Shown: positions 1 through 34,041 of the stretch, in pieces
How the letters are laid out: every line of letters begins with the position of its first letter
How positions within the stretch are numbered: the first letter of the stretch is position 1
From: Crocinitomicaceae bacterium
Lineage (GTDB): Bacteria > Bacteroidota > Bacteroidia > Flavobacteriales_D > Crocinitomicaceae
DNA: 64,000 nt
Direction: 5' to 3'
Assembly (NCBI GenBank): GCA_029254025.1
Contig: JAQWYK010000049.1
Coordinates: forward strand, 1 to 64,000
Translations under genes and position numbers: made by a program
Notes under the pieces: model-generated
The model's database searches: none
Seen by the model: the letters and a program-made list of their open reading frames with translations, nothing else
What the model was told of the DNA's origin: nothing

Positions 1-1700
1 ATTACTACGGATTCCCGCTTGATGATGATGAAAAATACGCCTTACTAAGGGTTATTGAATACAGTTTCGGATTCTACGTCCTTCGTTATATCGTTAAGTT
101 TGTCTACGATTATTCACCTAAAGATTTTTTAAGGCGAAATTGGTTCGAATCGGTCGTGATTCTGCTACTGATTGTTGAAGGAATTGCGTACAATTTCTTC
201 AATACCATGTTCATTTCTAAATTCTTTGTATGGCTTGGATTTGAGGGGTTTGGAGATGTTTCCAATATTTTTGTACAGCTCTTCTTTATAATCTATATCG
301 CTGCGGAAGTATTCAAAAAACGTGACTTTCACATGTGGTTTAAAATTCACCCTGGGCTTCTGTTTACATTTTCTATTTTGGGGATTATTTTAATTGGAAC
401 GGGATTACTGCTGTTGCCAGAAATGACTACTTCCGGAGGAATTCCTTTTACGGACGCGTTGTTTACTTCTGCTTCGTCAGTGAGTGTTACTGGACTAATG
501 ACAGTTGATGTAAGTGCGGATTTTACATTTAAAGGACACCTTGTAATTCTGTTTTTAATCCAAGTTGGAGGGTTGAATACCATAGCGTTCGCGGCGTTGT
601 ATCTGCTTGTTGCTAAATTCGGAATAGGCGTCAAACAAGACGAAATCTTGGAGGATTATGTAAATAATGAATCCTTTTTGGGAACGAGTAACATGTTTGC
701 GAAAATTGTGCTGTGGACGCTCATTATTGAATTTATTGGGTTTTTACTCATCTTTGCGTTACTTGATCCAGCGATGTTTCCAACAACGGGAGATCATTTT
801 TTCCAAAGTATTTTTTACTCAGTTTCTGGGTTTAATAATGCGGGTATTACCGTCATGTCAGATGGGATGATGAATGAAGCAGTGATGCACAATTATGGAT
901 TTCATTCCGTGGTGATGATTCTTTTCTTTTTAGGCGGTTTTGGGATGATTTATTTATTCGACATCCTCGACCCAAGAAGTATCCGCGAACGGATGAAAAT
1001 GAAGTGGAAGGGTTTACAATTCGGTACTAAAATCACGTTGTTTTATACCTTGTTGCTACTTGTTCTTGGAGCAGTGGTATTTTTTACATTAGAGTACGAC
1101 CGATTGTTGGAGGGACAACCTTGGTATGGGAAAATGGTAAGTACGTTCTTTTCATCGATGACTACAAGAAATGCTGGATTTAACACCGTAGATATTGGAA
1201 GTTTGAGCATGCCCGTATTGGTATTTTTCTTATTCCTGATGTTTGTGGGGGCAGGATCAGGTTCTTCCGGTGGAGGTATTCGAGTATCTACTTTCGGAAT
1301 TATGGTATCTTCTGTTTTATCTACGATTCGCAGAAAACCTTACACAGAAATGTTTAAACGTACGATTTCAAACGATTTAGTGCTTAAGGCATATTCCATT
1401 TTTATCTTTTTTATCGTTGGAAATCTGATCGGGATATTTGCGTTACTCATCACGGAGCAAGAGGCGCTTGAGTCAGGCGCGTTCTCATTGATTGATATCA
1501 TTTTCGAACATGTTTCCGCAGCGAGTACGGTGGGATTGTCAACTGGATTAACGCCTGAATTGACTACGGCAGGAAAATATGTCATAATTGTGGCTATGTT
1601 TATTGGTCGTGTGGGAACATTAACACTTGCTTACTTGTTAGGAAAGCAAGTACTCAGTAAAAATTACAAATATCCTTCGGGACATACAATGGTGGGTTAG
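1..1700 (+). CDS. TrkH/KtrB-family potassium uptake membrane protein (5' end outside window)
   Basis: Membrane subunit of a Trk/Ktr-type K+ uptake system in the inner membrane. The frame is open from the first complete codon at position 3 to the left edge, so the GTG at 156 is not the true start and the N terminus is missing. Four pore-loop motifs typical of the family are visible: [36 protein letters not shown] and [12 protein letters not shown], each followed by a membrane segment (M1-P-M2 repeats). Two or more extra N-terminal hydrophobic segments precede the first pore loop, as in the long Bacteroidota TrkH proteins. The regulatory TrkA/KtrA partner is not in the window. The next gene starts 2 nt after the stop, suggesting co-transcription with ubiE. 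Confidence 0.9.
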
Positions 1701-25823: not shown

Positions 25824-28800
25824 ATGTATAAAATAATTTCTTGTGCTTTAGTGTGTGCGTTACAAACGGTTTTTTCTTTTGGACAAATCTTGAATCTGAA
25901 GTCTGGCGTGTATGACTTGACTGAGTATCCTCAATTAACCGCACAAGCGTTTAGTGAAAATCCTTATGGAATCATTTCTTTTACCCAATTGCCAAGTTCT
26001 GCGGATAAAGAGCGGCTAGCGGCTCAAGGTATAACGCTGATGGGGTATTTGCCGACCAATTCGTTCTATGCTTATTTCTCAAGGTTGCCTGCTGCAGAAG
26101 TGAGCGCTTCTTTTCATATTCAGCGTATAGTAGCGATCGAAGAATCCTTTAAACTGTCTGCTATGTTGGTACGTAATGAGTTGCCACACTGGGCTTTTTA
26201 CGGAGATACGCACGTTGAAATTATTGCCGAATACTTTTCAAACAAACAGCCTGAATCTTTGATAGAAGGACTCACTAAGCAAGGATTACAAGTTATCCAG
26301 CACGATGAGGTAAATTATACATTTTTGATACGTGTTCCTAAGAATGCATTGGCACAAATTTACAAGATTCCTGCATTTAAGTACTTTGAAACGCCAAATC
26401 CTCCAGGAGAACCTGAGAATTTGCCAGGTCGGACCAGTCACCGTAGTAATACATTATTTTCTTTTGCTGATAATGGTTTGAAATATCGTGGAGACGGGGT
26501 GAAAGTGATGATGCAAGACGATGGATACATCGGGCCTCATATTGATTTTGCAGGAAGAATAGATCAAACGGATTGCAATCCGTGCAGTACTTCCCCAGAT
26601 GATAACCACGGAGACCATGTTGGAGGAACAATTATGGGGGCGGGGAATCGCAATCCCTCCAATCGTGGGATGGCGCATGGTGTTGAGTTGTTGGTCTATA
26701 ATGCGGCGAACTCGAATTACGGGGATGTCCCAAATTTATACACGAATGACGATGTTTTCATTACCTCAAAATCATACAGTGATGGATGTAATAGTGGTTA
26801 TAGCTCTTTAACGCGTTCCTTGGATCAGCAGGTACGTTTGTATCCGTCATTGGTGCATGTTTTTTCTGCAGGGAATAACGGAGGTGATGATTGCGGATAC
26901 GGAGCAGGTTCAGGATGGGGAAACATTACTGGAGGGCATAAGTCCGGGAAGAATGTTATTGCTGTTGGAAACCTAACCAATTCTGGAAATCTTGCCGGTT
27001 CAAGTAGTCGCGGTCCCGCTACAGATGGACGTATTAAGCCAGATATCTGTGGTGTTGGAACCGCGGTGAACTCCACCATCTATGGAAATCAATATGCTTC
27101 TTTTACGGGAACGTCTATGTCTTGTCCCGGTGTATCTGGAACAATTGCTCAGTTGTTAGAGGCGTACAGAGATTTAAATGCCGGCGCGAATCCAGATGCT
27201 GCATTGATGAAAGGCTCAGTATTAAATACTGCAGATGATTTTGGAAATCCTGGTCCAGATTATAAATATGGTTGGGGAAGTATTAATGCACGAAGAGCTT
27301 TTGATGTATTTAAAAATCAAACATATCAATCTGGAAGTGTTGCTAACGGAGGCTCAAACGTTCATACGATTTCCGTTCCTGCGAATGTAAAACAATTACG
27401 CGTAATGGTGAACTGGATGGATTATGAAGGGTCCACGAGTGCAGGTATTGCTTTGGTGAATGATATTGATATGACAATGACGGATCCGTCATTAACAGTT
27501 TATGAACCATTGGTACTTGATCCTACACCTACAGTTGCTGCCCTAGATGCGCTAGCGGTGCCGGGTGAAGACCATTTGAATAACATGGAACAAATTGTAG
27601 TGAACAATCCAGTGACAGGAGCCTATGAAGTGACCATTGACGGGTTTGCTATTCCGGAAGGTCCTCAAGCGTACTATCTGATTTACTCCTTCGAAATGGA
27701 TGATATTATTGTGACGTACCCGAACGGAGGAGAAAGCTTCAATCCAGGTTCAAGTGTGGTAATTCGTTGGGATGCTCCAGAAGGAACGGATCTATTTACG
27801 TTGTCATTTTCTGCCGATAATGGTGTGAGCTGGGACGTAATCGGCTCTGCTGCTGCTGATGCTCGCCTTTTCTCATGGTTTATACCCAACGGAACGCTGA
27901 CCCATGAAGGGTTGATTCAAATTGAACGCGCTGGAGTGCAAGGTCAAAGCGGTGCTGAATTTTCTGTAATCGGAACACCAACAGCATTTAGCTTGCAATG
28001 GGTATGTCCTGATTCGTTGATGCTGACATGGAATCCAGTATCAGGTGCTGATACGTATGAGGTGAGCATGCTAGGTGCTCGTTACATGGATAGTTTAATG
28101 ACTGTCTCTGACACCAGCGCTATAATCCATATGTCTGCTGCTCAAGAGGCATGGTTTGCCGTGAAGTCTCGGAATAACCTTGGTGCGATCGGAGAACGCG
28201 CGATTGCTATTGAAAAAATGGTCGGAGAATTTGGTTGTTTATGGAGTGCGCCGTACGCTGCATTTGACATAGACTGTGAATCTGCTGGTGAACACTACTG
28301 CTTTTCACTTTCGGATCAATCCGAAAATACGGACAATACGGCTTCTGTAACTTGGTATTTCCCTGGTGGTACTCCAAGTATTGCAACTGGAACATCTCCT
28401 CAAGTGTGTTATTCGGCTCCAGGTGACTATGACGTTGCGATGGTAGTGGATAACGGGTTTGGAGTAGACTCCATTTATCAGGTGAATTATATCAAAGTTA
28501 TCCCTACGGGTACGCTACCTTATTATGAGAGTTTTGAAAATCACACTTCGTTTGTAAATAACGATGCTTGGGAAAGCGTAAGCGTTGGAATAGGTCCTTC
28601 TGCCTTTGCGATTAGTACCAACGCCTCCTTGTTGGGTGACAAATCTGCCCGCTTACAAAATTTTGGACAGCCGAACGGCGCAATTGATGAACTTATTTCA
28701 GGTCCTATTGATTTGTCTGTATTGAGCGCGACGGATAACGTAACTCTCAGTTTCCGATATGCATATAGAAAAAGGAATGAAACGAACGATGAGTGGTTAC

Positions 28801-29339
28801 GCGTGTTTTTGAAAGATGATTGTTTAGGATCCTGGGCGCAGCGCAAAACTATTCGAGGGAATACATTATCTCCCTTGGTCGAGACAAGCTCTTGGACACC
28901 GAGTACACCAGAGGATTGGACGACCGTGCACATGACGAATGTGACGAGTAGCTTCTTCACGGGTGATCTTCAAGTTAAATTTCAATTTGAAAACGATGGT
29001 GGAAACAATTTTTACTTAGACGACATCAATATTTATCAGGGAAATCCTTCTAATGATATTGTTTCAATAGAGGAAGTTGAGAGTTCTGAGACTTACTTTA
29101 CTATTTATCCGAACCCGTCAGATGGTGAGTTGAATATTGAATTCACACCAGAAATGGCTGGATCGGTGCAAATACAGCTTATGGATGTGAACGGTAAATT
29201 GATTCAACAGCACTTCATTTACGCTACTACCGGAAGTAATTTAGTCTTGGTAGATGCTAAGGATATTGCACCAGGAATGTATTTTATAAATATGATTCAG
29301 CAAGGTGTAAGGGCAACCGAAAAATTAGTTATTCGATAA
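25824..29339 (+). CDS. Secreted subtilisin-like (S8) serine protease with T9SS type A sorting domain
   Basis: 1171-residue exported peptidase. Signal peptide MYKIISCALVCALQTVFSFG. The S8 catalytic triad is readable: Asp in VMMQDDGYIG (about Asp232), His in DNHGDHVGGT (about His265), Ser in FTGTSMSCPGVSG (about Ser431), and the oxyanion Asn in FSAGNNGG (about Asn351). After the protease come a Kre9-like/Ig-like domain (YPNGGESFNPGSSVVIRW), an FN3-like module (SLMLTWNPVSGADTYEV), a PKD domain (FPGGTPSIATGTSPQVCYS), a MAM-like sandwich ending FYLDDINIYQG, and a type A sorting domain (IYPNPSDGELNIEF, PGMYFINM, EKLVIR). Its 3' end overlaps a convergent PrcB-like lipoprotein gene by 11 nt. Confidence 0.92.
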   Translation: MYKIISCALVCALQTVFSFGQILNLKSGVYDLTEYPQLTAQAFSENPYGIISFTQLPSSADKERLAAQGITLMGYLPTNSFYAYFSRLPAAEVSASFHIQRIVAIEESFKLSAMLVRNELPHWAFYGDTHVEIIAEYFSNKQPESLIEGLTKQGLQVIQHDEVNYTFLIRVPKNALAQIYKIPAFKYFETPNPPGEPENLPGRTSHRSNTLFSFADNGLKYRGDGVKVMMQDDGYIGPHIDFAGRIDQTDCNPCSTSPDDNHGDHVGGTIMGAGNRNPSNRGMAHGVELLVYNAANSNYGDVPNLYTNDDVFITSKSYSDGCNSGYSSLTRSLDQQVRLYPSLVHVFSAGNNGGDDCGYGAGSGWGNITGGHKSGKNVIAVGNLTNSGNLAGSSSRGPATDGRIKPDICGVGTAVNSTIYGNQYASFTGTSMSCPGVSGTIAQLLEAYRDLNAGANPDAALMKGSVLNTADDFGNPGPDYKYGWGSINARRAFDVFKNQTYQSGSVANGGSNVHTISVPANVKQLRVMVNWMDYEGSTSAGIALVNDIDMTMTDPSLTVYEPLVLDPTPTVAALDALAVPGEDHLNNMEQIVVNNPVTGAYEVTIDGFAIPEGPQAYYLIYSFEMDDIIVTYPNGGESFNPGSSVVIRWDAPEGTDLFTLSFSADNGVSWDVIGSAAADARLFSWFIPNGTLTHEGLIQIERAGVQGQSGAEFSVIGTPTAFSLQWVCPDSLMLTWNPVSGADTYEVSMLGARYMDSLMTVSDTSAIIHMSAAQEAWFAVKSRNNLGAIGERAIAIEKMVGEFGCLWSAPYAAFDIDCESAGEHYCFSLSDQSENTDNTASVTWYFPGGTPSIATGTSPQVCYSAPGDYDVAMVVDNGFGVDSIYQVNYIKVIPTGTLPYYESFENHTSFVNNDAWESVSVGIGPSAFAISTNASLLGDKSARLQNFGQPNGAIDELISGPIDLSVLSATDNVTLSFRYAYRKRNETNDEWLRVFLKDDCLGSWAQRKTIRGNTLSPLVETSSWTPSTPEDWTTVHMTNVTSSFFTGDLQVKFQFENDGGNNFYLDDINIYQGNPSNDIVSIEEVESSETYFTIYPNPSDGELNIEFTPEMAGSVQIQLMDVNGKLIQQHFIYATTGSNLVLVDAKDIAPGMYFINMIQQGVRATEKLVIR

Positions 29340-31918: not shown

Positions 31919-32196
31919 GATCCTCGTTTCGGGAGAGCAATCATCCAAAGCAAAGATAGTCTTTCCTTTTGAAACTAAAAGAATGCTCTGGATAAAACTT
32001 CAATAGTATACTTCGAATTCCAAAAAGCAATCTAAACTCAAAATTCCAAACTCCATCCAGCTGAATATTTTTTTTATTTTTACATGTCACGAAATTCGAT
32101 TCATCCGTTAAGTAAGTATTTGAAATCGATTGCTCGAAGTTTGTGAGACGGCGAAAGGTGAAAACCATGTCCGTCCGTAATAATACAAGAACTAGT

Positions 32197-34041
32197 ATGA
32201 AGTATATTTTCTCTTATCTCTTTTTCCTTTTTACCATTAACGTCTCGGCACAAATTGATGGCATTACGCGTGTTCGAATGGATACAACAATGGCGTTTTC
32301 GGGGCTGGAAATACTAGATAGCGTCGTCCAAGACAAACGCATCGTCTTAACAGGAGAAAACCATCAATTTAATGTTACGAACAACGTGTTGAAATTCAAC
32401 CTTATTCTTTACCTCTATGAAAAGGGATTTCGTTATTTCGTGCTGGAATTTGGTCAGGGAATAGGGTATTTGGCGAATCAATATGTCACGGAAGGAGACG
32501 AAGAAGCGATCGACATCTTAGACGCTGGAACGCCAGACTATGTACCTAATTATTTGAGTGATTTGTTGTTTCCATTGCGAGAATTTAACAAAGACAAAGC
32601 ACCCGAAGACCAGGTGAAAATTGTAGGTGCGGATTTGACGCGTTACCCAATTTATTCCTTGCGTGCAATGGCGCGAATCATTCAACAGTCCAATTGTGAA
32701 AAGGATTTGGCACTATTTTACGAGGACATTAATGTCGTGGCTTCTGCGCGTCCAACTAATGATCGATTAGGTTTTACGGGAAGAATTCAAAACCTGGAGG
32801 ATTTCGACATCAAAGCGGGTTTTAAATCCTATCAAAATCGATTATTTGAGTTGTCTGTGCGAAATCTTATTTCCGATTTCTATAAGGATACTATTCGTTT
32901 TGAGCGAGCACTTGGACATGATTACGCAGATTTTAAGTTTTTATTGGATGAATTAAAGACGACAGTAGAATGGTATAAGCGGGATAATGTGGTCATTCAA
33001 TCACATGTTGATCGAGAACGTCATTTAGAAAAGCGTATACTAGGTATATTTGAAAACGATTCTATGGCGAAGGTTGCAGGTCAATTTGGGCGATGTCATG
33101 TGCGGCTTTCAGATTTCGATCAAGACTGTTATGCATTTGATATGATTTCAGTTACAGAACGGTTACAAAAGCATGAATTACTCGAAGATAAACTGTTCAT
33201 TCTCCCTATTTTTTACACGTTTTTAAAGTCGGAAGTGCACTTCGAAAAGTCGGCGACTACCTATTCACAAAAAGAGTTGATTCATAATGATGCGGTATTC
33301 TTGTACGATACAGAAAAAGAGTGGTTTACCTTTGATGGAGAGGTTGAAGTTCCGCGTTACGTGTTAATTAACACCTTCACGCCGTATGCTGAAACCGATC
33401 ACATGTTGCCAGCACAAGAAAGTAGTACTGCTTACCGTGGAGTTGCAGAAGAGGGACATACCACTTTTCTTGTACAACCGCGTTATTTTGACGTGAGTGT
33501 GAATGATGATTTTGGTGTGGAACTGTTACAGACACAACAACTCTTTTATGGATTTAACTTCACGACTGTATTTGCACAAGGTGGTCGCTATGGGCTGGGC
33601 GCATCCTTTATGCCTCCGCGCACCGTAAACAATGATTCGGTAGCTTGGAGGTATACGAATTGGAATATACCTGTTACACTGGGATATACTTGGCTGTATC
33701 GTTCTTGGATTTCCTTGTATTCAAATGTGATGACGGACATCGGTTTTGCAAAGGTGCGTGAGGACCGGGGCTTATTGAACTCAGGATTTACGTATGATTT
33801 TGAGAAAAACCGTGCGATTTATCGCAATCCGTATTTTACGTTCAATGGAATTGCAGGTATTCAGTTCAAGTTCAAATCAGTTTCCATATTCAGTGAAGTA
33901 GGGTACGGGTTTGATGTTACCCATGCGAAATGGCGGAATAAAGGTATTCTACCCAATTCTACTGGGCAGAAATTTGACCAGCTATTTTACCGTTTTGGAT
34001 TGTCATTTTATTACCGAGATCGAGTGGGGAGTAGGTTTTAA
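32197..34041 (+). CDS. Erythromycin-esterase-like domain protein with C-terminal barrel-like region
   Basis: 614 residues from the ATG at 32197, chosen because it starts a Sec signal peptide (KYIFSYLFFLFTINVSAQ); the frame is open upstream to a GTG at 32143. Residues about 35-420 resemble the erythromycin esterase-like (EreA/TIKI-related) superfamily: KRIVLTGENHQFN matches the GE.xH motif, GFRYFVLEFGQG the following strand, and GQFGRCHVRLSD a later conserved histidine. From about residue 428 (nt 33481) to the end the sequence alternates polar and hydrophobic/aromatic residues with short turns and ends FYYRDRVGSRF, as an outer-membrane beta-barrel would. Function unknown. Confidence 0.65.
   Translation: MKYIFSYLFFLFTINVSAQIDGITRVRMDTTMAFSGLEILDSVVQDKRIVLTGENHQFNVTNNVLKFNLILYLYEKGFRYFVLEFGQGIGYLANQYVTEGDEEAIDILDAGTPDYVPNYLSDLLFPLREFNKDKAPEDQVKIVGADLTRYPIYSLRAMARIIQQSNCEKDLALFYEDINVVASARPTNDRLGFTGRIQNLEDFDIKAGFKSYQNRLFELSVRNLISDFYKDTIRFERALGHDYADFKFLLDELKTTVEWYKRDNVVIQSHVDRERHLEKRILGIFENDSMAKVAGQFGRCHVRLSDFDQDCYAFDMISVTERLQKHELLEDKLFILPIFYTFLKSEVHFEKSATTYSQKELIHNDAVFLYDTEKEWFTFDGEVEVPRYVLINTFTPYAETDHMLPAQESSTAYRGVAEEGHTTFLVQPRYFDVSVNDDFGVELLQTQQLFYGFNFTTVFAQGGRYGLGASFMPPRTVNNDSVAWRYTNWNIPVTLGYTWLYRSWISLYSNVMTDIGFAKVREDRGLLNSGFTYDFEKNRAIYRNPYFTFNGIAGIQFKFKSVSIFSEVGYGFDVTHAKWRNKGILPNSTGQKFDQLFYRFGLSFYYRDRVGSRF

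Follow-up and report, generated by a model that had tools for sequence, protein, structure and literature searches.

A probable periplasmic Ere/TIKI-type hydrolase carrying its own predicted outer-membrane barrel in the Bacteroidota

The known Ere-type enzymes are free hydrolases, some of which confer resistance. In outer-membrane barrels of the OmpA type, which have an even number of strands, the short turns and both termini lie on the periplasmic side. The catalytic set of EreC consists of E47, H50, E78, R261 and H289 (PMC7979712), and a 2His/2Glu set is essential in the TIKI-type endopeptidase RRSP (PMC6254334). Here we describe a protein in which an Ere-type domain is followed by a predicted outer-membrane barrel, a new domain combination inside a known superfamily. 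The earlier note on this DNA, made from the sequence alone, knew of no description of this architecture. It is apparently undescribed, as full-text searches of the open literature, which leave most subscription journals outside their scope, returned no description of an Ere domain joined to an outer-membrane barrel.

The N-terminal part resembles EreA, EreC and the B. cereus proteins BcR135 and BcR136 (PF05139) in its two-lobed fold, its five catalytic residues and its 28-residue spacings. These proteins, however, have no barrel, carry GExxH where the fused family has GExH, and share about 13–16% identity with it; a pair of Cys residues next to the second catalytic His characterises the fused family. 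Core fold, 2His/2Glu site and GExH motif are shared with the TIKI superfamily (TIKI, TraB, ChaN, RRSP), but ChaN lacks the Ere minor lobe and no member was found with a bacterial outer-membrane barrel. The C-terminal part has the barrel fold and topology of OmpA, OprF and OmpW. OmpA and OprF also possess a periplasmic domain, but theirs is C-terminal and binds peptidoglycan, whereas in the fused protein the enzyme stands ahead of the barrel. The order of enzyme and then outer-membrane barrel is known from EstA, which differs in having twelve strands and a surface passenger of the SGNH hydrolase fold. The statement of the earlier note that barrels are normally separate proteins was too strong, since other domains are attached to the barrels of OmpA, EstA and autotransporters. 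Free-standing barrels of Bacteroidota, homologous to the C-terminal domain, lack the enzyme domain.

The window, the whole stretch of DNA analysed, comprises 64,000 nucleotides of a Crocinitomicaceae contig. An open reading frame on its forward strand (32197–34041) encodes the 614-residue protein. An in-frame GTG is present upstream at 32143, and the ATG at 32197 matches the starts of the relatives. Both flanking genes are on the opposite strand, and the fused gene stands singly. The features of the protein, among them the signal peptide and GENH motif that had been noticed before, are listed in Table 1. Gln19 is invariant in 30 members. No lipobox Cys is found at the end of the signal peptide, and by this criterion the fused protein is not a lipoprotein.

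Table 1. Features of the fused protein and their positions in the window.
Feature	Residues	Position	Strand	Basis or remark
Signal peptide (MKYIFSYLFFLFTINVSA)	1–18	32197..32250	+	Predicted mature start Gln19; cleavage site inferred from sequence
Ere/TIKI-type hydrolase domain (predicted)	21–401	32257..33399	+	VIA-align to EreC, PDB profile matches, borderline Pfam PF05139
GENH motif (E54; H56, catalytic-base candidate)	53–56	32353..32364	+	Invariant in active members; counterpart of EreC E47/H50
E84	84	32446..32448	+	Counterpart of EreC E78; 28 residues past His in both
R273	273	33013..33015	+	Counterpart of EreC R261; 28 residues ahead of second His in both
QFGRCH motif with C300 and H301	296–301	33082..33099	+	H301, counterpart of EreC H289
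C311	311	33127..33129	+	Probable disulfide partner of C300
Linker	402–417	33400..33447	+	Low model confidence, fast evolving
Eight-stranded outer-membrane beta-barrel (predicted)	418–608	33448..34020	+	AF2 model, fold matches, free-standing homologues
Barrel strands	418–430, 447–458, 463–478, 482–501, 505–524, 538–559, 562–573, 595–608			AF2 model

An AF2 prediction from the single sequence (pLDDT 27) was replaced by a model computed with 41 homologous sequences, which has a mean pLDDT of 86.4 and a pTM of 0.71. Residues 21–401 of this model match the folds of EreC, BcR135 and BcR136; for EreC (6xcq), VIA-align gave a Z-score of 25.6 with 343 of 408 residues aligned at an rmsd of 5.6. The core fold of ChaN matches the same domain with a Z-score of 11.3. 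A family profile built from fused and free-standing relatives detected 2qgm (E 2.6e-30), 2rad/3b55 (1.2e-23) and EreC 6xcq (2.8e-13) among the PDB sequences. The match of the window protein alone to the Pfam family Erythro_esteras has an E-value of 3.7e-5, the protein scoring 24.0 and 25.2 bits and the genome search giving 26.5 against a gathering cut-off of 26.4; 13 of 28 family members are matched, the best with E 5.6e-10. On the NCBIfam EreA model the window protein scores 12.3 bits, below the cut-off of 750, and this sequence criterion places it outside the curated EreA family. As judged from the modelled fold and the active site, the N-terminal domain is a two-lobed Ere-type domain of the Ere/TIKI superfamily. 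The EreA/TIKI-like fold proposed earlier is thus borne out by the fold match to EreC, the full set of catalytic residues and the PDB profile matches.

The equivalence of the active-site residues with those of EreC was set by profile alignments and spacings, not by geometry in the model. Of 48 aligned members, 46 have all five residues (E54, H56, E84, R273 and H301); altered paralogues from one family make up the remaining two. Even when free-standing Ere proteins of Bacteroidota are included, E54, E84, R273 and H301 are at least 90% conserved. Equivalent residues have been tested by mutation in Ere enzymes (PMC7979712) and in RRSP (PMC6254334). The motif has the RRSP form, with a Glu–His spacing of two instead of the three found in Ere enzymes, and for this reason the substrate site may differ from theirs. 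In 44 of the 48 members both C300 and C311 are present, in four both are missing, and neither is ever found singly. This joint retention or loss points to a disulfide and thereby to an oxidising compartment.

Extra barrel-bearing copies occur in one family, f118 (L163:1-2181, L163:2145-4223, L165:1288-2736), one of them in tandem with a fused gene. Copies without catalytic residues, with ENNNH and IRPRY instead of EHERH, are probable pseudoenzyme paralogues as far as their sequences tell. The Ere profile fails to recognise the N-terminal part of L163:1-2181, whose kinship in that region is therefore unsure. The loss of catalytic residues in two of these paralogues (the first of L163 and that of L165) would fit a protein that acts as a receptor, its Ere-like domain binding a ligand, for example haem as in ChaN; the shared ChaN core fold and the resemblance of GExH to the TIKI/ChaN form point the same way. 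We nevertheless regard this reading as unlikely, because the Ere minor lobe, missing in ChaN, appears to be present, the alignment covers nearly all of EreC, and the catalytic set is almost always complete.

The C-terminal part is predicted to form an antiparallel barrel ending in a C-terminal strand. In VIA-align comparisons this region (416–606) matched OprF (Z 17.3; rmsd 2.2 over 132 residues), OmpW (16.1), OmpA (15.6) and PagL (14.2), in agreement with Foldseek. The earlier note had assigned a barrel to this region and had named a soluble sandwich as the contrary outcome; the prediction returned an outer-membrane barrel, which begins about 11 residues before the start at nucleotide 33481 that the note had given. 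The alternation of polar and hydrophobic residues reported there proved to be beyond chance. Over the eight strands the family mean lies above all 20,000 within-strand permutations (z 4.4), and for the window protein alone p is 0.007; as the strands were taken from the AF2 model, this is a check of the model and not an independent discovery.

A search of the PDB with the barrel sequence only gave no match, and its solved counterparts there were found by fold comparison alone. Pfam OMP_b-brl does not match the window protein and matches two of 28 members weakly. Free-standing homologues of the barrel, 215–275 residues long, occur in the order and the phylum (e.g. L031, L041, L102–L107); one or two of them match OMP_b-brl weakly, and one adjoins a fused gene directly downstream (L059). 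Conservation within the barrel is highest at N436, N544, D573 and W579, which are all predicted to sit in the outer mouth or close to it, and it is partly common to the free-standing barrels. In one genome a barrel closely related to the fused one (E 5.6e-37) is encoded behind MORN-like repeats (L162:1299-2801, reverse strand). Since it occurs behind another N-terminal part, the barrel is a module that has been put to use repeatedly, and it may serve as a reusable anchor in the outer membrane.

Across 46 members, median turn lengths are four, three and two residues between strands 2–3, 4–5 and 6–7, and the connections 1–2, 3–4, 5–6 and 7–8 have medians of 20, 4, 13 and 21 residues, the second loop being short as well. 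Since the enzyme precedes strand 1 and the termini share their side of the barrel with the short turns, the enzyme domain should be periplasmic. The earlier idea of a hydrolase tethered by its own barrel is upheld; between the surface and the periplasm, which it had left open, the modelled strands and loops speak for the latter.

Display on the cell surface, with the barrel delivering the hydrolase as in EstA to act outside the cell, would have in its favour the same order of enzyme and barrel and the presence of EstA (3kvn) among the Foldseek matches. It is quite improbable: with eight strands where EstA has twelve, the barrel has no pore through which a passenger could pass, the model shows no helix threading the barrel, the short turns are on the side of the termini, and the enzyme of EstA has a different fold. 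Assignment to the type V autotransporter class, which needs a twelve-stranded barrel with a linker through the pore, was rejected for the eight-stranded model.

The neighbourhoods of 20 relatives contain only housekeeping-type genes and no constant partner that would point to a substrate or pathway. In three genomes from two families of the order (L116, L119, L121), the fused gene and an adjacent ECF-type sigma-factor gene are divergent, with the same pair of genes next in line, an arrangement absent elsewhere. The window itself also encodes a subtilisin-like serine protease (25824–29339, forward strand), whose C-terminal tail resembles a type IX secretion sorting domain (YPNPSDGELNIEF...). 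Among solved enzymes whose substrate is known, EreC is the closest, so that a macrolide esterase conferring antibiotic resistance at the outer membrane might be considered. We judge this very unlikely in view of the score on the curated EreA model, the identity of about 13% to EreC, the equally close BcR135 and BcR136, which are annotated otherwise, and the chromosomal-like setting of an old and widespread gene away from resistance genes.

The fused protein was detected in 17 of 59 near relatives (once cut by a contig end), in about 30 of the order's 399 genomes, and in at least 12 genomes distributed over five further families of the class. Outside the class, where sampling is thin, it was not encountered. 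Restriction of the fusion to one order, which a first phylum sample had indicated, was overturned by the class search with a better profile. Other long Ere reading frames of the phylum, when read by eye, had jelly-roll-like, methyltransferase-like or carboxypeptidase-regulatory-like extra parts and no visible barrel. In another architecture of the Bacteroidota (L148, L149 and L151, 823–829 residues; L150, 877 residues) the Ere-like domain precedes a carboxypeptidase-regulatory-like region and an additional region rich in beta structure.

The nearest relative, from a Crocinitomicaceae metagenome-assembled genome, is 82% identical. Both domains are under purifying selection, with dN values against the sister species of 0.09 for the enzyme and 0.15 for the barrel and saturated dS; identity to that species is 44% in the linker, compared with 86% and 76% in the domains. 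Enzyme and barrel have co-diverged, as the distances of the one correlate with those of the other at r 0.91 over 44 members, and the best of 2000 permutations reached 0.25. A barrel tree neither shows nor excludes a single origin of the fusion. A chance fusion, an assembly error or a soluble C-terminal sandwich can be set aside as extremely improbable: both parts do have common unfused relatives, but the same two-domain reading frame, sought by the phyletic search that had been suggested, recurs in more than 40 genomes, both parts are under selection, their divergence is correlated, and the AF2 model is a barrel.

Taken together, the protein is probably a periplasmic hydrolase anchored in the outer membrane, which would work as EreC does, without a metal and by activating water, on an ester, a lactone or a peptide. 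It would be exported by the Sec pathway and lose its signal peptide, whereupon the C-terminal barrel would insert into the outer membrane with both ends periplasmic. The Ere-type domain would then hang in the periplasm at the inner face of that membrane. H56, oriented by E54, would together with E84 and H301 activate water for attack on the carbonyl of the ester, lactone or peptide, and R273 would stabilise the intermediate; a C300–C311 disulfide probably fixes the loop that bears H301. An ester or lactone of the envelope, or an incoming one, is a more likely substrate than macrolides specifically.

It is conceivable, if improbable, that the barrel acts together with the enzyme, the mouth cluster of N436, N544, D573 and W579 recognising an outer-leaflet lipid or glycan and the hydrolase acting on the same or a passing molecule. 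If so, this would be a one-protein outer-membrane sensing or remodelling enzyme. The existence of an old, class-wide lineage in the Bacteroidota with a barrel-tied Ere enzyme points to an unrecognised envelope function, for the testing of which a defined set of genes is now given.
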